A DNA stretch of 38,270 nt. It comes from an uncultured Bacillota bacterium (GTDB lineage: Bacteria > Bacillota_I > Bacilli_A > Culicoidibacterales > ZOR0006). The stretch lies in NCBI GenBank assembly GCA_945956935.1, contig CAMFJD010000016.1, forward strand, positions 1 through 38,270. Reading direction: 5' to 3'. Numbering within the stretch: the stretch's first letter is position 1; every line of letters starts with the position of its first letter. The notes below the pieces were generated by a model. The model was not told where the DNA came from and ran no database searches. It was given only the letters and a program-made list of their open reading frames with translations. Position numbers and translations under genes: made by a program. Shown here one piece after another: positions 2,790 to 25,515 of this stretch.

Positions 2790-3245
2790 TTAGTAACCCA
2801 TTTCTGTTAACCAAGTTGATAAATCAGCTTCTGATTTATTTCCGACTAAACGACCAATCTCTTCTCCGTCTTTAATAGCGATTAAAGTTGGAGTTCCTTC
2901 GATTTGTAAACGATCAAGCATTGCATTTTTTGTGTCATTATCTTCAGTAGCAGCATCATCAACATTATAGTAGTCAACAGTAAAGTTGTTTGTTTTTGCA
3001 GCTGATTCAATTTTGGGTTTGAATTCGACACATGCTGAACATGTCGGACGGCCTACATAGACGATGAAATCTTCTTTGGCATCAAGCTTTGTTGTTAAAT
3101 CATTTGTTGTAATTGATGGTAAATATTGTTCGTTTTGGGTACTACGAGCAAATTGCAATCCAAATAAGAGTGCAATAGCTAAAATAATTCCACCGGCAAT
3201 AAGGCCGATACGAACAGTGTTTGAATTTGTTGTTGTTTTAGACAT
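2790..3245 (-). CDS. Membrane-anchored thioredoxin-like protein (CxxC)
   Basis: A 151-aa protein with one N-terminal membrane segment (about 12-32) and an extracytoplasmic thioredoxin fold. The redox motif is Cys69-Ser-Ala-Cys72 in 'GRPTCSAC', and the cis-proline loop is 'EGTPTL'. This resembles the thioredoxin-like accessory proteins found with bacteriocin or competence systems in Firmicutes. It probably performs thiol-disulfide exchange outside the membrane; the partner is unknown. The RBS GGAAGG precedes the ATG. It lies 44 bp downstream of a paralogue (3290-3751), so the two are probably co-transcribed. Confidence 0.8.
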   Translation of the reverse strand: MSKTTTNSNTVRIGLIAGGIILAIALLFGLQFARSTQNEQYLPSITTNDLTTKLDAKEDFIVYVGRPTCSACVEFKPKIESAAKTNNFTVDYYNVDDAATEDNDTKNAMLDRLQIEGTPTLIAIKDGEEIGRLVGNKSEADLSTWLTEMGY

Positions 3246-3289
3246 AAAAAACCTTCCTTTATAAATTAGAGTATATAAATTGTAGCATG

Positions 3290-3751
3290 TTATTGTGCAT
3301 TAATCCAGGCAGTCACTTCAGCTTGATCGAAACCATCTCGCAGTGACCAGGCAATTTGATCAACAATTTTTCCATCGACCACATGTACAAGTGTTGGCGT
3401 AGTGGTAATTTCATATTGTGTTTTGAAAGCTTCGAATGTATCATTTTCGCGTAATGATTTGACACTAACATATTCCCAAGTGTAGTCTGTTTCCCATGTT
3501 GTTGATGGTAAATCAGCTAAAAACCATGTTTCAAACTCATCAGAATCACCACAACTTGGATCACCAATATAAATAATTGCATCTGATGTAGAAGCAATTA
3601 ATGTATCAAGTGTGCTAACATCATGTTCAGTCATAACATTTGTAATTGGTGTTACATTATCTTGGTACCACTCATATCCATAGTATCCGCCAAATCCAAT
3701 CGCTACAATGGCAATTGTACTGGCAATGATTTTTATTAATGTTGTATTCAT
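3290..3751 (-). CDS. Membrane-anchored thioredoxin-like protein with single active-site Cys
   Basis: A 153-aa paralogue of the 2790-3245 product with the same architecture: an N-terminal membrane segment (about 5-24) and an extracytoplasmic thioredoxin-like domain. The redox site reads 'GDPSCGDSDEF', Cys67-Gly-Asp-Ser70, so the second Cys of CxxC is Ser. The cis-proline segment 'TTTPTL' is kept. This is a monothiol-type site, more suited to mixed disulfides or an isomerase or chaperone role than to a classical dithiol reaction. A strong GGGAGG RBS precedes the ATG. It is the first gene of a probable two-gene operon with the CxxC protein. Confidence 0.7.
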   Translation of the reverse strand: MNTTLIKIIASTIAIVAIGFGGYYGYEWYQDNVTPITNVMTEHDVSTLDTLIASTSDAIIYIGDPSCGDSDEFETWFLADLPSTTWETDYTWEYVSVKSLRENDTFEAFKTQYEITTTPTLVHVVDGKIVDQIAWSLRDGFDQAEVTAWINAQ

Positions 3752-8803: not shown

Positions 8804-8982
8804 AAACTGTTACCTCCGTATTAAGTATGACTATATTTTATCACTCTAGTATATTGAAAGCGCTTAATTTTCTGTAAAATTTTGATAAAAACACAGATAA
8901 TTCTTATGAATTAAAACAAACAACAGAATTATATGAAAAAACAGATAAAACAAACTATATTTTATGTAATGGCAAAAAAATA

Positions 8983-10364: not shown

Positions 10365-11324
10365 ATGTGGAAGTATTTTCAACAATTTTGGCAAATAAGT
10401 AAACAAATTATTGGTGTATTGATAACAATGTTCATCGTGCAGTGTGTACTGGGTGAATTGCCAACAACAGTTGTTTTATTAATTGCCTTCTTTTTTTTAG
10501 TTCCACCTGCTGCAAGGCATCAAGAGTGGCATATTGGTACAGTGTTAGCTCAATACGGAGCAGTTTTGTTTTTGCCAATACTAGCTGTTATCATTCATAA
10601 ACCGATTGCAATTATTTTATTTGGTGCATTACTTGTCTGTGTTCCATACGTCATGAAGAAACCAATATCCTTTATGCAAACGATTGCCGTTTTTTTAGTT
10701 GGCACAGATTATTTACTTCAAGCTGTAGAACCAAGTATTGTTTATTTGATACCGAGTATATTAGCAGCGTGTATCGCATACGGTATCTCTCGGCTGCTAT
10801 TGCCATTGGGGAATGGGATTTTCATCAATCGGCGTATTTATGAACAAACACAGCGGTTGTTTATATTAACTAATCGCTATTGTTTGGAATCAATTAAAAT
10901 CACCCCAGAAGAATTTCAGCAGTTTCGAAAAGAACAACAATTGTTGCAAGCAACTATAAAAAATTATGAGACATGGGGAATAGATATACGAACGCGTTAT
11001 CGTTCACATTTACATTTGTATAGCCTTGTATATGATTTAAATTCAGCAGGGATCCATGTGCTTTATGAAGCAAATCAACGCGATGTACCAAGATGGATCT
11101 GTGCTGAATTTCATAATTCACAACGCATTCATCGATTGTTATTAGAAACAGTCTATCAAGAGGCAAATGCATGCCCAGTATTGCAGTATCGTATGCCAGA
11201 GTGTGTATATGATCAACAATTTCAGCATTCATTAGCAATTCATGCGTTAACACAATATATGAAGTGTTTAGAGCAAGCAGTACCTATTTGGCGAAAGGAG
11301 CTGTGTTATGGAAATCATCACTAA
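10365..11324 (+). CDS. FUSC/aromatic-acid-exporter-like membrane protein
   Basis: A 319-aa protein with five to six N-terminal hydrophobic segments (about 12-155) and a cytoplasmic helical C-terminal half of about 160 residues. The membrane half plus soluble helical half resembles the FUSC/ArAE family, whose members export aromatic acids or are of unknown role. The GGGAGAGAAAAGG region acts as RBS. Its last 17 bp overlap the next gene, which has the same architecture, so the products may form a heteromer. Assignment is by architecture, not by specific motifs. Confidence 0.6.
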   Translation: MWKYFQQFWQISKQIIGVLITMFIVQCVLGELPTTVVLLIAFFFLVPPAARHQEWHIGTVLAQYGAVLFLPILAVIIHKPIAIILFGALLVCVPYVMKKPISFMQTIAVFLVGTDYLLQAVEPSIVYLIPSILAACIAYGISRLLLPLGNGIFINRRIYEQTQRLFILTNRYCLESIKITPEEFQQFRKEQQLLQATIKNYETWGIDIRTRYRSHLHLYSLVYDLNSAGIHVLYEANQRDVPRWICAEFHNSQRIHRLLLETVYQEANACPVLQYRMPECVYDQQFQHSLAIHALTQYMKCLEQAVPIWRKELCYGNHH

Positions 11325-12222
11325 AAGACAAATTTATCAAGTCCTTATTGGTTTGTTAGCAACAGTTGGTTTTTATTGGCTCGTTGATTATCCGTTAACG
11401 AGTACAGCTATTATTGCAAATTTTATCATTTTATTAATTTCACCAACCAAGCAACGAGCACAGATGAATATTAAAGGGCAAATATATGCACAAATTGTTG
11501 GGATAAGTGTTGGTGTTGTGTTAGCTTTTTTGATGCAAAATGCGTATAGTGCGATTACATGTATTTTATTGATTGTTTTGACGTTACCTTTTTGGTTTCG
11601 TGTTGAAATTCCATCGCTTGCTCTAACGATTGCAGCATATGCAATTTTTCAATCAGAGTCTGTGGCTGGAGCTAGCCTTGAACGATTACTTGTCACGTTA
11701 GTAAGTTTAGCTATTGCTTTTGGGGTGAGTTGGATTTTTGCAGTACGCTATACATTGTCAAAATCACAACGGGAATTACACCATCAGTTTTTGCTGTTAT
11801 CACGTGCAATCCATGAAGTGTTATGGCGTGGAAATGACAAACAGTTGATAACAGAACTGCCACAAATTCCACGATTACCGGCTGAAGCAAAACAGATGTT
11901 GCTACAATATGAACGTGAATTGATGCTATTACAGGAAGCTTTATTTGATGTCCATCAAGCATTGTATGAAAGAAATGAAGATATCCCATTGATTGTTCAT
12001 CAAGAATTACGTTACGCACTTCAAATACACTATGTACTACTGAATCAAGTGCATGAATTAGTGGAACCACATATGGAATTGTTCTATGAGGTGTCTGAAA
12101 CAGTGATTGTGAGTACATGGGAACATAGCCGTAGCTTAGCCGTAACACTTGTCTATTTACAACGATTAGAACAAGCAGTTACATATGTTAATCAGGGAGA
12201 AGTTGCCAAGAATCAGCAATAA
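11308..12222 (+). CDS. FUSC/aromatic-acid-exporter-like membrane protein, second subunit
   Basis: A 304-aa protein with about six hydrophobic segments (11-150) followed by a helical cytoplasmic domain, like the upstream partner. The segment 'STAIIANFIILLISPTKQRAQMNIKGQIYAQIVGISVGVVLAFLM' (about 32-76) is reminiscent of the FUSC family. The start lies inside the previous gene (RBS AAAGGAG), so translation is coupled. Its 3' end overlaps the convergent mini-SSB gene by 35 bp with no obvious terminator between. The substrate is unknown. Confidence 0.65.
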   Translation: MEIITKRQIYQVLIGLLATVGFYWLVDYPLTSTAIIANFIILLISPTKQRAQMNIKGQIYAQIVGISVGVVLAFLMQNAYSAITCILLIVLTLPFWFRVEIPSLALTIAAYAIFQSESVAGASLERLLVTLVSLAIAFGVSWIFAVRYTLSKSQRELHHQFLLLSRAIHEVLWRGNDKQLITELPQIPRLPAEAKQMLLQYERELMLLQEALFDVHQALYERNEDIPLIVHQELRYALQIHYVLLNQVHELVEPHMELFYEVSETVIVSTWEHSRSLAVTLVYLQRLEQAVTYVNQGEVAKNQQ

Positions 12223-12460
12223 TATAGAGTTGATTATTAAATGTTTCAACGTGTCCACGAACAAGCAGTTTATGCGAATGGTCTAGTGTTACGTGTTTAT
12301 GTTGTTCAGTTGGAAAAAGACAATGAATATAATCACAAATAAATTGGTTTTGGCTATTGCGGAACCCACGGGTTGTTCTAATGGTAACCAAATCATATTC
12401 AGGATCGAATTTTGTATGTATTTTTTCGAATATACCAATGATGAGTGATGAGTTAAACAT
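12188..12460 (-). CDS. Mini SSB-like OB-fold protein
   Basis: A 90-aa protein that looks like a shortened single-stranded-DNA-binding protein. The N-terminus 'MFNSSLIIGIF' parallels 'MINRVVLVGRL' of SSB. The C-terminal strand pattern 'KLLVRGHVETFNNQLYIIADSWQLL' parallels the 'VEGRL...V.ADxVxxL' end of the SSB OB fold. It lacks the disordered tail and acidic DDDLPF tip of true SSB. It is second in a two-gene unit with a similar 84-aa protein, 23 bp apart, RBS AAGGA. Single-stranded nucleic acid binding is inferred. The 3' end overlaps the convergent FUSC-type gene. Confidence 0.55.
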   Translation of the reverse strand: MFNSSLIIGIFEKIHTKFDPEYDLVTIRTTRGFRNSQNQFICDYIHCLFPTEQHKHVTLDHSHKLLVRGHVETFNNQLYIIADSWQLLPD

Positions 12461-12483
12461 AGAATCACGTCCTTTAGAATGGT

Positions 12484-12738
12484 TTACGTAAGTTGAATGA
12501 TATGTTCGATAATAAAACGATTGGATTGATTTGGTAATTCACAATCAATCCTACCATGAATGCATAATATATTAGATTCATCGAATTCAGTTTTAATCAA
12601 ATTATGACCATGAAATTTTTTGATTTCACCAAAGATTGTAACAGATGAATTGAGTGGTTGAATACGGACAAATAAAGTGTCCTCTGTACCATGGTCTTTA
12701 GGTGTAACTGTACCAATTAAAATAGTTTTATTAATCAT
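12484..12738 (-). CDS. Mini SSB-like OB-fold protein
   Basis: An 84-aa protein with an SSB-type N-terminus 'MINKTILIGTVTP' and a later 'NILCIHGRIDCELPNQSNRFIIEHIIQL' that matches the last strands of an SSB OB fold. It is shorter than SSB (usually over 105 residues) and has no acidic protein-interaction tail. It is the first gene of a two-gene unit; a paralogous-looking 90-aa gene follows. A perfect palindrome (12762-12781) sits between the probable -10 region and its RBS, suggesting repression. A role in competence, repair or plasmid/phage-like DNA handling is possible but unproven. Confidence 0.6.
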   Translation of the reverse strand: MINKTILIGTVTPKDHGTEDTLFVRIQPLNSSVTIFGEIKKFHGHNLIKTEFDESNILCIHGRIDCELPNQSNRFIIEHIIQLT

Positions 12739-12761
12739 AAAAGTATACCTTTCTATTATTT

Positions 12762-12781
12762 TTGTTAACGAATGTTAACAA
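12762..12781. promoter_or_regulatory. Palindromic operator candidate upstream of the mini-SSB pair
   Basis: TTGTTAAC-GAAT-GTTAACAA is a perfect 8-bp inverted repeat with a 4-bp centre, located 23-43 bp before the ATG at 12738. The core AAC-N4-GTT has the spacing of Bacillus-type LexA boxes (GAAC-N4-GTTC), but the flanking bases differ. The repressor identity is open. Confidence 0.5.
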
Positions 12782-12906
12782 TGATAGTATGTCACGTTAT
12801 GATTGAAGAATCAATTTAAAACACATTGCTTACTTCATTGACTGATAGAAATAACTACTAGATTATTTCTATTTATATCATAAATATTGTTATGAATTTT
12901 TTTTTG

Positions 12907-12960
12907 AAAAAAACAGTAACCCTCTTCGAACTAATAGATTTCGAAGAGGGTTACTGTTTT
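12907..12960 (-). terminator. Terminator after mntP
   Basis: A 21-bp perfect inverted repeat (12910-12930 with 12940-12960) with a 9-nt loop and a T tract on the minus strand. The right arm overlaps the mntP stop codon. Confidence 0.9.
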
Positions 12961-13576
12961 AAAACAACGAAGCAACTCCAAGTAGGATTAAAATGATTCC
13001 ACCGATGATGTTGGCACGGTTTCCAATGAGTTTTTCAAGTTTTCCGCCAAAAAATGCACCAGCAAGTGCTAGTATGAAGGTGATGAGACCGATAAATATC
13101 ATAGAAATTAAACCGACAGCATCTTGTGAGTAAATCAATCCAAATGATAACCCAGCAGCAAAAGCATCAATACTAGTAGCAACACCAAATACAATTAATG
13201 TTTGGAGTGATAAGCGGCGTTTTTTGCCAGTACGTAAGCAAATATCCTCATGACATGATTCGTAGTTACATGTTTCATGTGCACAATTATTTTCTTGTTC
13301 TTCAAATCCATCACGAATCATTTTGATTCCAAGAATACACAGTAAGACAACAGCAATAAATTGATTAAATGTCGTGAGTTCTTGAGAAAAGAAACCAACT
13401 GCGATGAAACCAATTCCGAACATAAGTGCTTGGAATAACCCAAACGTAGTAGCTATCGCATAGCGATCACGCTTATGGTAAGCAGTTCCTCCCATTCCCA
13501 TAGAGATTGAAACAGCAAAAGCATCCATTGCAAGTGCAAGTGAAAGGAAAAGAACGGTAATAATTAGTGTAAACAT
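12959..13576 (-). CDS. mntP: Manganese efflux pump MntP family
   Basis: A 205-aa, six-helix membrane protein of the MntP (DUF204) family, which exports Mn2+. Both signature helices are present: 'AMDAFAVSISMG' (Asp18) and 'SIDAFAAGLSFG'. The cytoplasmic loop between helices 3 and 4 is unusual, with Cys98, 103, 108 and 113 each five residues apart plus two His, followed by a basic patch. The frame also opens at an upstream TTG, but AAGGAG lies 8 bp before the ATG at 13576, which I take as the start. No yybP-ykoY-type Mn riboswitch was recognised upstream. Confidence 0.9.
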   Translation of the reverse strand: MFTLIITVLFLSLALAMDAFAVSISMGMGGTAYHKRDRYAIATTFGLFQALMFGIGFIAVGFFSQELTTFNQFIAVVLLCILGIKMIRDGFEEQENNCAHETCNYESCHEDICLRTGKKRRLSLQTLIVFGVATSIDAFAAGLSFGLIYSQDAVGLISMIFIGLITFILALAGAFFGGKLEKLIGNRANIIGGIILILLGVASLF

Positions 13577-21588: not shown

Positions 21589-21918
21589 ATGATGTGGAAT
21601 CAAAAATGCCATCAATTTCTTGGTCTCGCAATGAGCGCGGGGAAAGTATTGTCTGGTGAAGAAATTGTTCTTTCCGGTGCGAAAAGCAAAAAAGTAAAAT
21701 TAGTATTACTAGCAACAGATGTTGCCAAAAATAACCAAAAAAAAGTAACGAATAAGTGTCAGACATATGGTGTGCCACTTCTACAAGTTGCTACAACAGC
21801 TGAACAATCTTTAGCAATTGGCAAAGCCAATCGTGTCGTAATCGGAATTACTGACAATGGATTTGCAAAAGGCTTTAAAGAGCGTTTAACGAAGGTGGAA
21901 GAAAAAGATGAAAACTGA
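21589..21918 (+). CDS. ylxQ: L7Ae/L30e-family ribosomal protein (YlxQ)
   Basis: A 109-aa protein of the L7Ae/L30e/S12e/Gadd45 kink-turn-binding fold, at the conserved YlxQ position between ylxR and infB. Typical features are 'FLGLAMSAGKVLSGEE', 'LVLLATDVAKNNQKKV' and 'GVPLLQV'. It probably binds structured RNA such as k-turns. The RBS lies in the end of ylxR. It overlaps the next gene by 11 bp. Confidence 0.9.
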   Translation: MMWNQKCHQFLGLAMSAGKVLSGEEIVLSGAKSKKVKLVLLATDVAKNNQKKVTNKCQTYGVPLLQVATTAEQSLAIGKANRVVIGITDNGFAKGFKERLTKVEEKDEN

Positions 21919-22741
21919 AAAAATTCGTGTAATCGACTATGCAAAAAGTCGACAAGTACAAGCACGTGAAGTAATTGAGGCTGCTAAATCGCAAGGTCAA
22001 ATCATTAATGCAATGACACTAATTACATTCCGTGAAGCAACAACATTGGATGGAGTGCTGAATGAACGCATTGACAAAACTGAAACATTAGCTGATTTAT
22101 TTAAGCGCATTTTGCAAGAAAATATCCAGTTCCATAAAGATCGCCAACGTCGTCGTTTTGAGCGTATCGATGCGATGCGTGCAGCAGGATTACCAACTCC
22201 AAGACGTCAAAGTCGTAGTGATCGCGATCCAGTTGGTGGACCAGACCACTCTGAGCGTGGGACACGTGGTGATAATCGTCGCCCAAGACGACTAGGACCA
22301 GCTAATGAACAACGTGGAGGAGAGCGTCGTCAATATAATAATGACCGTCCACAACGTGATGGAGAGCGTCGTCAATATAATAGTGATCGTCCACAACGTG
22401 ATGGAGAGCGTCGTCAATACAGTAATGACCGCCCACAACGTGATGGAGAGCGTCGTCAATACAATAATGACCGTCCACAACGTGATGGAGAACGTCGTTC
22501 GTACAATAGTAATCGTCCACAACGAGATGGAGAACGCCGTTCGAACAATAATGACCGCCCACAACGAGGAGGAGAGCGTCGTTCGTACAATAATGACCGC
22601 CCACAACGTAGAGAAAAAACAGGCGTAAATCGTCGTTTGGAAGAGAAAAAACGTGATGCAGAACGTGACGCAGCTCGTGGAGGAAGACCACCAAAACGAA
22701 AAGGTGATCGTAAAGTAAAACAATTTAAAAAATCAGAATAA
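21908..22741 (+). CDS. Orphan IF2-N-like domain protein with Arg-rich 14-aa repeats
   Basis: A 277-aa protein I cannot match to a named family. Residues 1 to about 50 align with the N-terminus of the IF2 encoded downstream (shared EKIRV-x-x-YA, QAR-x-V, MTL). A helical stretch follows (50-95), then a disordered basic linker. About residues 135-240 hold some seven units of a 14-residue repeat ([14 protein letters not shown] type), ending in a Lys/Arg-rich tail. There is no GTPase domain. It overlaps ylxQ by 11 bp and precedes infB by 62 bp, so it is co-expressed with the translation machinery. Likely role: RNA or ribosome binding, by inference from the IF2-N domain and the RG-like tail. It probably arose by partial infB duplication. 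Confidence 0.75.
   Translation: MKTEKIRVIDYAKSRQVQAREVIEAAKSQGQIINAMTLITFREATTLDGVLNERIDKTETLADLFKRILQENIQFHKDRQRRRFERIDAMRAAGLPTPRRQSRSDRDPVGGPDHSERGTRGDNRRPRRLGPANEQRGGERRQYNNDRPQRDGERRQYNSDRPQRDGERRQYSNDRPQRDGERRQYNNDRPQRDGERRSYNSNRPQRDGERRSNNNDRPQRGGERRSYNNDRPQRREKTGVNRRLEEKKRDAERDAARGGRPPKRKGDRKVKQFKKSE
22312..22611 (+). repeat. 42-bp tandem repeat array in the orphan IF2-N gene
   Basis: About seven in-frame 42-bp units, each encoding a variant of R-P-Q-R-D-G-E-R-R-x-Y-N-N-D. Differences are mostly single bases. The same unit recurs in infB (23004-23390), in the same reading frame. Confidence 0.85.
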
Positions 22742-22803
22742 AAAGTGAATAACATTGAATTGTAAAAAATACAGTTCAAAAATAATACGAGGTGAAATTT
22801 CAT

Positions 22804-25515
22804 ATGACTGAAAAAATTCGTGTGCGCGAGTACGCAGAACAAAATAATTTACAAGCCCGTGACGTGGTTTCAATTGCCCGCCAACTTAATATGAATGTTA
22901 AAAACATTATGACGCTTTTAACACCACAAGAGGTAGACCAATTGAATGCAAAAAAACCAGAATTTAAAGCATTATTAGAAGCAAATGCAGAACGTCGTAA
23001 TAATCGTCCACAACGTGATGGAGAGCGCCGTCCGTATAATAATGACCGCCCACAACGTGATGGAGAACGTCGTTTTAACAACAATGGACCCCGTCGTCCA
23101 TTGCCATCAGCTGGTGAACGTTTAGAGCCACTTGAGGCACCAGGAGAACGTCGTCCATATTATAACAATAAAACACGTGGAATTACTGATGGTGAGCAAC
23201 TACCAAATTCATATCGTGCAATGCCAAAACGACCAGAACGTCGTCAATATAACAATGATCGTCCACAACGTGATGGAGAGCGTCGTCAATATAACAATGA
23301 TCGTCCACAACGTGATGGAGAACGCCGTCCGTATAATAATGACCGCCCACAACGTGATGGAGAGCGTCGTTCATATAACAATGATCGACAAGGCGGACAA
23401 GGTCGTTATAACAACAACGATCGCGGAGGAAACCGCCAAGGTGGACAAGGTCGTTATAACAACAACGATCGCGGAGGAAACCGTCAAGGGAATCAAGGTG
23501 GTGCAGGTCGTTTAGAACGTCAAATCGCTGATATTAAAACAGATGCACAAGCACAAGTAGCATTACGCGGTGAAGAGCGTCCACGTGTAAAGCGTGAGGA
23601 AAAAAATTGGATTGATGTTGTTACTGAACGCGAAGAAAAAAAATCAATCAAACAACGTAAAGACGAAGAGCGTCGTGAAATGCGTCGTCGTCAAAAAGAA
23701 AAACAACAAGAAGAGAACCGTCGTCGTCAAGAAGAGGCACGTAAAAACTCTGGACCTAAAGTAATTAAATATGTTGATACATTAACAGTTGGAGAATTCG
23801 CACATAAATTAGGAATTCAAGCAAGTGAAATTATCAAATATTTATTATTAGAATTAGGAATCATGGCTACGTTAAATCAAGAATTAAACGAGGAAACAAT
23901 TGAGTTATTAGCATCAGAACATAATGCAGTTGTTGAACGTGAAGTATCAACAGATGCAACAGACCTTGATAAATTCTTCGAAGAAGTTGAAGGTGCAGTT
24001 TTAGCAACTCGTCCACCAGTTATTACAATTATGGGACATGTTGACCACGGAAAAACAACGTTATTAGATACAATTCGTAATACGCGTGTTGTTGCTGGCG
24101 AAGCTGGTGGAATCACTCAGCATATCGGTGCATATCAAATTGAACATGATGGAAAACCTCTAACATTTTTAGATACACCAGGTCACGAAGCCTTTACAAC
24201 AATGCGTGCACGTGGAGCACAAGTTACTGATATTGCCATTATTGTTGTTGCAGCAGATGATGGTGTGATGCCACAAACAAGAGAAGCAATTGAGCATGCA
24301 CGTGCAGCGGAAGTTCCAATGATTGTTGCTGTTAATAAAATGGATAAACCAGGAGCAAATCCGGATCGAGTTATGCAAGAATTGGCTGAATTAAGTGTTT
24401 TATCTGAAGCGTGGGGTGGAGATACAATCTTCGTTCAAGTATCAGCAAAAGCAAATACAGGAATCGATGAATTATTAGAAATGATTCTGTTAACAGCTGA
24501 AGTAAATGAATATAAAGCAAATCCGGATCGTTTAGCAGTCGGAACAGTAATTGAAGCGCGCTTAGATAAAGGACGTGGACCGGTTGCTACGTTATTAGTA
24601 CAATCTGGTACATTACGTGTTGGAGATCCAGTTGTAGTTGGGAATACATATGGACGCGTACGTACAATGGAAGATGATTTCGGTACACGTTTAACTGAAG
24701 CAGGACCATCAACGCCTGTTGAATTAACAGGTTTAGTTGGAGTACCGGCAGCTGGTGATAAGTTTGCTGCATTTGATAATGAAAAACAAGCTCGTCAAAT
24801 CGGTGAAGAACGTGCGAAAATGGCATTAGTGCAACAACGTTCTGCTTCATCAGCAATGAGCCTTGAAGATTTGGCACAACAAATCTTAGAGGGTGATATT
24901 AAAGAAATTAATGTAATTGTGAAAGCAGACGTACAAGGTTCTGTTGAAGCAGTTGTTGGATCATTTAATAAGATTGATGTAAATGGTGTACGTGTTAAAA
25001 TTATTCGTTCAGGCGCAGGTGCAATTACTGAATCTGATGTAACATTAGCAATGGCTTCAAATGCAATTGTTTATGGATTCAACGTTCGTCCAGATGCAAA
25101 AACACGTGACTTTGCTGAACGTGAAGGTGTATCGATTCGTCTACATAACATTATCTATAAAGCAATTGAAGAATTAGAAGGAATGATGCACGGAATGTTA
25201 GATCCAGAGTTTGAAGAAAAAATTCTTGGTCAGGCAGAAGTTCGTCAATTATTCAAAGTTTCTAAAGTTGGAACAATCGCTGGATGTATGGTTACAAGCG
25301 GAACAATTGAGCGTGATAGTATTGCTCGAGTTATCCGTGATGGAATCGTTGTATACGAAGGTAAGTTAGCTTCATTAAAACGTGAGAAAAATGATGCGAA
25401 AACAGTTGCTGCAGGATATGAATGTGGTATGATGTTAGAAAAATTCAATGACCTTAAAGAAGGAGATATCATTGAAGCTGCGAAACTTGAAGAGATTCAA
25501 CGTAAAGGGAAATAA
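22804..25515 (+). CDS. infB: Translation initiation factor IF-2
   Basis: A 903-aa GTPase that positions initiator tRNA on the 30S subunit. It has an IF2-N domain (1 to about 50) and a long Arg/Asn/Gly-rich disordered linker (about 60-300) with the 14-residue repeats and '[14 protein letters not shown]' units. A second IF2-N-like domain follows near 320-375, then the G domain with GHVDHGKT (411-418), DTPGHE (from 457), NKMD (from 511) and SAK (547-549). The C-terminal domains II, III and IV are complete. The frame opens at a GTG four codons earlier, but that overlaps the GAGGTGA RBS. The ATG at 22804 has 9-bp spacing and fits the family. Confidence 0.97.
23004..23502 (+). repeat. Repeat arrays in the infB linker
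   Basis: Two blocks of the 42-bp RPQRDGERR-type repeat (about 23004-23080 and 23238-23390) are separated by a non-repeated stretch. They are followed by two units of a '[16 protein letters not shown]' repeat (about 23390-23502). All are in frame. Confidence 0.85.

Follow-up and report, generated by a model that had tools for sequence, protein, structure and literature searches.

Two very small adjacent reading frames in the genome of an uncultured Bacillota bacterium raise the question of what a species with a standard SSB might do with two additional, much reduced and putatively SSB-like proteins. These frames, hereafter A and B, are found in a 38,270-nt stretch of contig CAMFJD010000016.1 (hereafter, the window) and the original prediction, made from the sequence alone, described them as a chromosomal operon of two mini-SSB-like OB-fold proteins. 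We asked whether A and B are genuine genes, whether they are related to SSB and which process they might serve.

The A-B locus in two species of the genus

Both reading frames were found adjacent to one another on the minus strand, with A transcribed before B, and their translations start with the residues MINKTILIGTV and MFNSSLIIGIF, exactly as predicted. The gene mntP is located 5' of A on the same strand, and the last codons of B share 35 bases tail to tail with a convergent exporter-like gene (12188-12222). The features of the locus are the following:

12484..12738, minus strand: gene A, ORF of 84 aa, first of the pair
12188..12460, minus strand: gene B, ORF of 90 aa, second of the pair
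12786..12814, minus strand: promoter-like TTGATT-17-CATACT before A (scripted pattern, chosen after looking)
12748..12754, minus strand: ribosome-binding-like AGAAAGG of A (by eye)
12470..12475, minus strand: ribosome-binding-like AAAGGA of B (read from the sequence)
12764..12779, no strand assigned: dyad GTTAACATTCGTTAAC in the leader of A, which may be due to chance
12907..12961, minus strand: terminator-like element where mntP ends, a long hairpin with a T-run behind it (by eye)

We compared this locus to Firmicutes bacterium ZOR0006 (JTLC01000035.1), the sole further representative of the genus in our comparison, such that synteny and orthology refer to two genomes out of two. There, mntP and a convergent exporter-like gene also flank the pair, in which A and B are arranged as in the window and encoded by ORFs of 78 and 128 aa, respectively. 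The tail-to-tail overlap of B with the exporter-like gene reaches 143 bases in this species (locus positions 8818-8960), and the C-terminal extension of its B protein is antisense to the end of this neighbor. The alignments between orthologs (A: 27% identity, z = 9.4; B: 31-34% identity depending on the aligner, z = 13.0) present scores that were not reached by any of 1000 shuffles. When sequences were resampled with their first-order base composition kept, an open frame was obtained by chance in 18 of 4000 resamples for A and in 36 of 4000 for B; across all four genes of both species, these counts range from 9 to 215 of 4000 (0.2-5.4% per gene). Because the same pair is found in the same order and at the same place in ZOR0006, A and B are genuine genes and more than chance ORFs. 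The gene order kept in the two species also supports the predicted organization of A and B as one small operon.

A promoter-like element of the form TTGATT-17-YAT..T precedes A in both species (TTGATT-17-TATAGT in ZOR0006); the pattern was chosen after looking at the sequences and the element of the window (12786..12814) is absent from the output of the consensus promoter scan. The hairpin at the end of mntP (12907..12961) is terminator-like and, judging from its sequence, would set mntP apart from the A-B pair. It was not listed by the terminator scan, whose limits are exceeded by its 9-base loop. No tRNA was detected in the window using ARAGORN and no Rfam family was found there at its gathering score. 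We also considered and rejected control by the SOS response through the dyad in the leader of A: this LexA-like box represents a single genomic site, the reversed control pattern gives equal counts, and the dyad is missing from the ZOR0006 locus. The LexA DNA-binding family was found in none of the four genomes of the order, one of which is only 78% complete. For comparison, this domain was matched in 10 of the 14 control genomes (9 over the cut-off).

On the other side of the pair, positions 10365-12222 of the window contain two overlapping membrane-protein-like genes, both with less than 50% identity between the window species and ZOR0006. One presents a sub-threshold similarity to aromatic-acid exporters (E = 0.0033) and the other has no exporter match. 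The exporter-like neighbor had no match in the two other genomes of the order that we examined, one of them only 78% complete.

Relationship of B, and probable relationship of A, to SSB

The only NCBIfam match of B in the window is PRK06752 (E = 0.0015), which we take to be the model of B. subtilis SsbB; its score is 18.7 bits relative to a curated cut-off of 189 bits. The B protein of ZOR0006 matches PRK06751 (E = 0.015), also far under the curated cut-off. When a two-row profile of B was searched against PDB sequences, seven of the nine matches at E ≤ 10 were SSBs (best E = 0.012) and the other two corresponded to a P450-like enzyme (E = 0.19). B was also matched by hhalign to an SSB profile built from eight SSBs of the genomes examined (probability 92; P = 5e-7). 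Limiting this comparison to the OB domain of SSB yielded a score of 42.4, and none of 400 column shuffles did as well (maximum 18.7; reversed profile 12.8). Neither A nor B matched the Pfam family SSB (PF00436) in either species at E up to 10, and the same test assigned 117.7 bits to SsbA. Three of the four proteins, namely both from the window and the B protein of ZOR0006, matched no Pfam family at all.

The structural model of B points in the same direction. AlphaFold, run on the two sequences, yielded a mean pLDDT of 64.5, and the best Foldseek match of this model was B. subtilis SsbB (3vdy; E = 3e-3). Chains of RPA and Stn1 came next, and the top rows also included PriB and more SSBs; no match reached E = 0.001. 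With VIA-align, several OB families were tied at Z = 8.5-8.0, such that this method singles out no family: the N-terminal domain of TtePriB (8.5), M. smegmatis SSBb, RPA, E. coli PriB (8.3), OB domains of tRNA synthetases and others. Based on this model, the assignment of B to the OB fold class appears fairly clear. Together with the profile comparisons, these results provide good support for B as a divergent, tail-less, SSB-derived OB-fold protein, which would have descended from a bacterial SSB.

We further analyzed which SSB residues are kept by B. The alignment with SsbA shows that R31-x-F33 and D43-Y44-x-x-C47 of B correspond to the R-x-F and D-F-x-x-C motifs of SsbA. In E. coli SSB, the aromatics that stack on ssDNA are W40, W54, F60 and W88, as listed in the part of PMC5945547 that concerns these residues. 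We placed them on SsbA through the SaSsbC equivalents given in the same part of that paper and through the alignment, a placement that involves no structural superposition. Both hhalign and the SSB alignments indicate that F33 and Y44 of B fit the first and second stacking positions. The third position (Phe60 in E. coli; W54 in SsbA of the window species) is a proline in B of both species (P50 in the window), and the fourth (the equivalent of Trp88) falls inside a loop that is shortened in B. Its loops are trimmed, but B appears to retain the OB barrel, along with both signatures (R-x-F and D-aromatic-x-x-C) and half of the four stacking aromatics. Because of the proline at the Phe60 equivalent and the shortened Trp88 loop, the affinity of B for ssDNA could be weak or lost.

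The acidic C-terminal tip is missing from A and B in both species, as the original prediction had it, and the tail of the longer B protein of ZOR0006 (128 aa) is non-acidic. This absence is not unusual for accessory SSBs: B. subtilis SsbB also lacks the tip according to the sections of PMC5945547 and PMC3976300 devoted to it. The claim that both proteins are shorter than any standard SSB holds relative to eight SSBs (126-182 aa) but fails for B of ZOR0006, given its length.

The relationship of A to SSB is more tenuous. Against the SSB profile, hhalign aligned residues 1-80 of A to positions 3-98 of the profile with P = 0.0027 and a probability of 11. Using the OB domain only, the score of A was 21.6, which was not equaled by any of 400 column shuffles (maximum 17.8) or by any of 70 chunks of seven neighboring orthologous genes used as controls (maximum 15.9). 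Taken alone, A of the window scored 21.3 across only 13 columns, and A of ZOR0006 scored 16.9 across 18 columns, inside the shuffle range. The AlphaFold model of A was uninformative (pLDDT 41), and Foldseek and VIA searches with this model returned noise and nothing meaningful. No SSB match was found for A in NCBIfam, Pfam or PDB sequences, and its few weak family matches look like chance: the only Pfam match of ZOR0006 A is TPP1 (E = 0.049), and PHROGs yielded only families of unknown function (E = 0.056-0.21). We infer from the profile comparisons that A is probably a second SSB-like OB-fold protein and an even more reduced copy. The predicted OB fold is supported for B by PRK06752, hhalign and Foldseek and only weakly for A. 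The same division is seen in two of the checks that had been proposed: structure prediction returned OB proteins as the top matches of B and was uninformative for A, and the search of SSB profiles recovered B clearly and A marginally, with PF00436 matching neither.

We also searched for a direct relationship between A and B, and the hypothesis that they are paralogs of each other was not supported. Their profiles fail to align (hhalign, P = 0.37), and the local alignment was equaled by 16 of 1000 shuffles for the window pair, 904 of 1000 for the ZOR0006 pair, and 321 and 970 of 1000 for the cross pairs. The sequences would connect A and B only indirectly, through SSB. An origin of the pair by splitting of a two-OB protein is not supported either. 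PRK05813, presumably a two-OB protein, scored over its cut-off in none of 395 genomes, yet also in none of the 14 control genomes, which makes this comparison of little weight; weaker matches were found in 289 of the 395 genomes and, among those listed, these were mostly to its second half.

The structural tie and the reduced set of aromatics bear on another explanation, in which A and B would be an OB-fold heterodimer that itself binds ssDNA weakly and that, like OrfL/OrfM or PriB, serves as an adaptor for a helicase, a relaxase or the restart primosome. The original prediction regarded paired tiny OB-fold genes in a chromosomal operon as unusual; for paired OB-fold genes, a precedent has been published: OrfL and OrfM of ICESt3 are OB-fold proteins that form a heterodimer, as described in the relevant part of PMC12614216. 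The adjacency of A and B, the presence of TtePriB and E. coli PriB among the tied best matches of B, and the absence of two of the four stacking aromatics from B are all compatible with such an adaptor. As far as the published descriptions of these elements extend, OrfL/OrfM (ICESt3), Orf22/Orf23 (Tn916) and HelP (ICEBs1) resemble A-B in involving two OB-fold proteins of one Gram-positive element; they are carried by conjugative elements with a relaxase, whereas A and B occupy a fixed chromosomal place, and no relaxase, mobile element or other mobile gene was recognized on reading the ORF list of the window. TtePriB and E. coli PriB are, like A and B, OB proteins without an SSB tail, but TtePriB carries two OB domains on one chain in the account given by PMC12614216, and A and B are encoded separately. 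The role of PriB lies in the restart primosome; the sequence matches of B are to SSB, and neither A nor B of the window has a Pfam match. We consider this adaptor role rather unlikely, although it is the most credible of the alternatives.

Distribution and rapid divergence of the pair

We searched for relatives of A and B in a broader set of genomes. A single-sequence search with B against 60 genomes (its own included) matched 19 of them at E ≤ 1. ZOR0006 was the best match outside B's own locus (E = 1.6e-4) and was followed by a match at E = 0.005 and weaker ones; few of these were inspected and none was taken as an ortholog. Across 395 genomes of the class, the A profile matched five at E ≤ 0.01 and the B profile matched five at E ≤ 1e-4, two of which are the pair itself in each case. 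The remaining candidates were rejected: the three A matches (E = 0.004-0.007) correspond to two loci without an SSB-like gene and to a site inside a 1295-codon frame, and the three B matches are canonical-looking SSBs. At these thresholds (E = 0.01 and 1e-4 for the A and B profiles, respectively), none of the other 393 class-wide genomes presented a convincing relative. Co-occurrence in related genomes, another proposed check, was therefore observed in ZOR0006 and not beyond it. As far as searched, the pair is peculiar to this genus. Among plasmids, A matched seven records (E = 0.2-0.3) and B none; among phages, A matched hypothetical proteins in three records (E = 0.7) and B matched an ssbA in one (E = 0.2). 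We treated the plasmid and phage matches of A as chance. No relative of A or B was confirmed among viral contigs, and the literature that we searched contains no account of a paired or fast-evolving SSB like A-B.

We then compared nine chosen syntenic genes, the pair among them, between the window species and ZOR0006 (the names MnmA, permease and kinase come from reading the sequences). Protein identity was 93% for MnmA, 77% for MntP, 74% for RarA, 71% for an AI-2E-type permease, 55% for a histidine kinase, and 48% and 46% for the two exporter-like genes. A (27%) and B (31%) are the fastest-changing of the nine. By comparison, SsbA presents 92% identity along its whole length and 99% within its OB domain. 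The rapid divergence of A and B is the most telling feature of the locus. The contrast between a slow SsbA and a racing pair within the same two genomes also offers a clean natural setting in which to compare how housekeeping and accessory SSBs evolve.

Relaxed constraint would also account for the fast divergence, and A and B could be remnants of a duplicated SSB, weakly constrained and without an important role. They diverge much more than SsbA and the seven other neighbors chosen, aromatics and acidic tip are missing, and no wider distribution was seen. Nevertheless, both frames remain intact and in the same order in both species at about 30% sequence identity, when a frame would stay open by chance in only a few percent of resamples at most, and the similarity of the proteins far exceeds that of shuffles. 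These observations make decay of the pair an improbable explanation.

The fast change could alternatively reflect an arms race, if the pair were a phage-facing factor such as a defense protein or an anti-recombination decoy. Phages commonly use OB and SSB-like proteins and commonly target them, and A and B change fastest of the syntenic genes compared. Neither A nor B matched a PADLOC family in either species (E up to 1); the two exporter-like neighbors had no PADLOC match either, and no defense gene was recognized on reading the ORFs of the window. Given also that viral contigs yielded no confirmed relative and that phage matches were at E = 0.2 or weaker, we regard this phage-facing role as the least probable of the explanations considered here.

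Possible role of A and B beside SsbA

In our best explanation, to which we would give slightly less than an even chance, A and B are accessory SSB-like proteins that lack the tail, are encoded together in a two-gene operon and bind ssDNA beside SsbA, with competence as a first guess and perhaps as a heteromer. In each of the two species, a single protein was found over the PF00436 cut-off, which is SsbA, ending with DDDLPF. A and B would coat ssDNA next to this housekeeping protein without recruiting its partners, and most likely they would serve one specialized process. Uptake of transforming DNA is our first guess for this process because comEC, dprA and comG-like genes are present in both species and a second standard SSB is not. 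The comG-like genes encode, in this order, a comGA-like ATPase, a comGB-like product and a prepilin, and were named from a domain match and gene order. The families of comEC and dprA were found, respectively, in 10 and 11 of the 14 control genomes (10 over the cut-off for each) and both in all four genomes of the order; being so widespread, they indicate that competence is permitted and not that it is proven. No motif common to the promoter region of A and the upstream regions of comG was identified by eye, and no competence gene was recognized in the ORF list of the window.

The simplest reading by analogy is that A and B would be this genus's counterpart of the tail-less SsbB. In B. subtilis, SsbB lacks the tail and is specialized for transformational recombination beside SsbA, according to the portions of PMC5945547, PMC3976300 and PMC6050356 that describe it. 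B shares with this protein its small size, its probable accessory status and the lack of an acidic tip; it differs in its length (90 aa, relative to 113 aa for SsbB in the relevant section of PMC5945547), in one missing stacking aromatic and in being partnered with A. SsbC of Staphylococcus aureus is, like B, an extra Firmicute SSB without the acidic tail, but it is 131 aa long and keeps the four aromatics critical for ssDNA, as far as PMC5945547 describes it, whereas B keeps two of them.

Within the accessory SSB-like explanation, A and B may work jointly as a heteromer; the original prediction had likewise suggested that they could form a heteromeric complex, for competence, repair or defense. 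A stronger version would be an obligate two-gene heteromeric bacterial SSB, in which two reduced tail-less OB proteins, neither working alone, stand in for a homo-oligomeric accessory SSB and diverge much more rapidly than the housekeeping SSB because their partner or DNA cargo keeps changing; we consider this version a long shot. If ssDNA is bound by a heteromer of the two, the pair would illustrate how a homo-oligomeric SSB is reduced and its function divided between two dedicated subunits. It would also constitute a small system in which to examine what an SSB still needs when deprived of its tail, half of its stacking residues and its long loops.

Two other regions of the window drew our attention. 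A 277-aa ORF (21908-22741) precedes an IF-2-like gene (22792-25515), and its start resembles the IF-2 N-terminal domain; the two have long runs of DGERR-type repeats in common, a pattern that resembles a duplication of the N-terminal part of IF-2. Finally, two adjacent minus-strand ORFs (2790-3751) look like membrane-anchored thioredoxin-like proteins, with the motif CSACVEF and a GDPSCGDSDEF variant.
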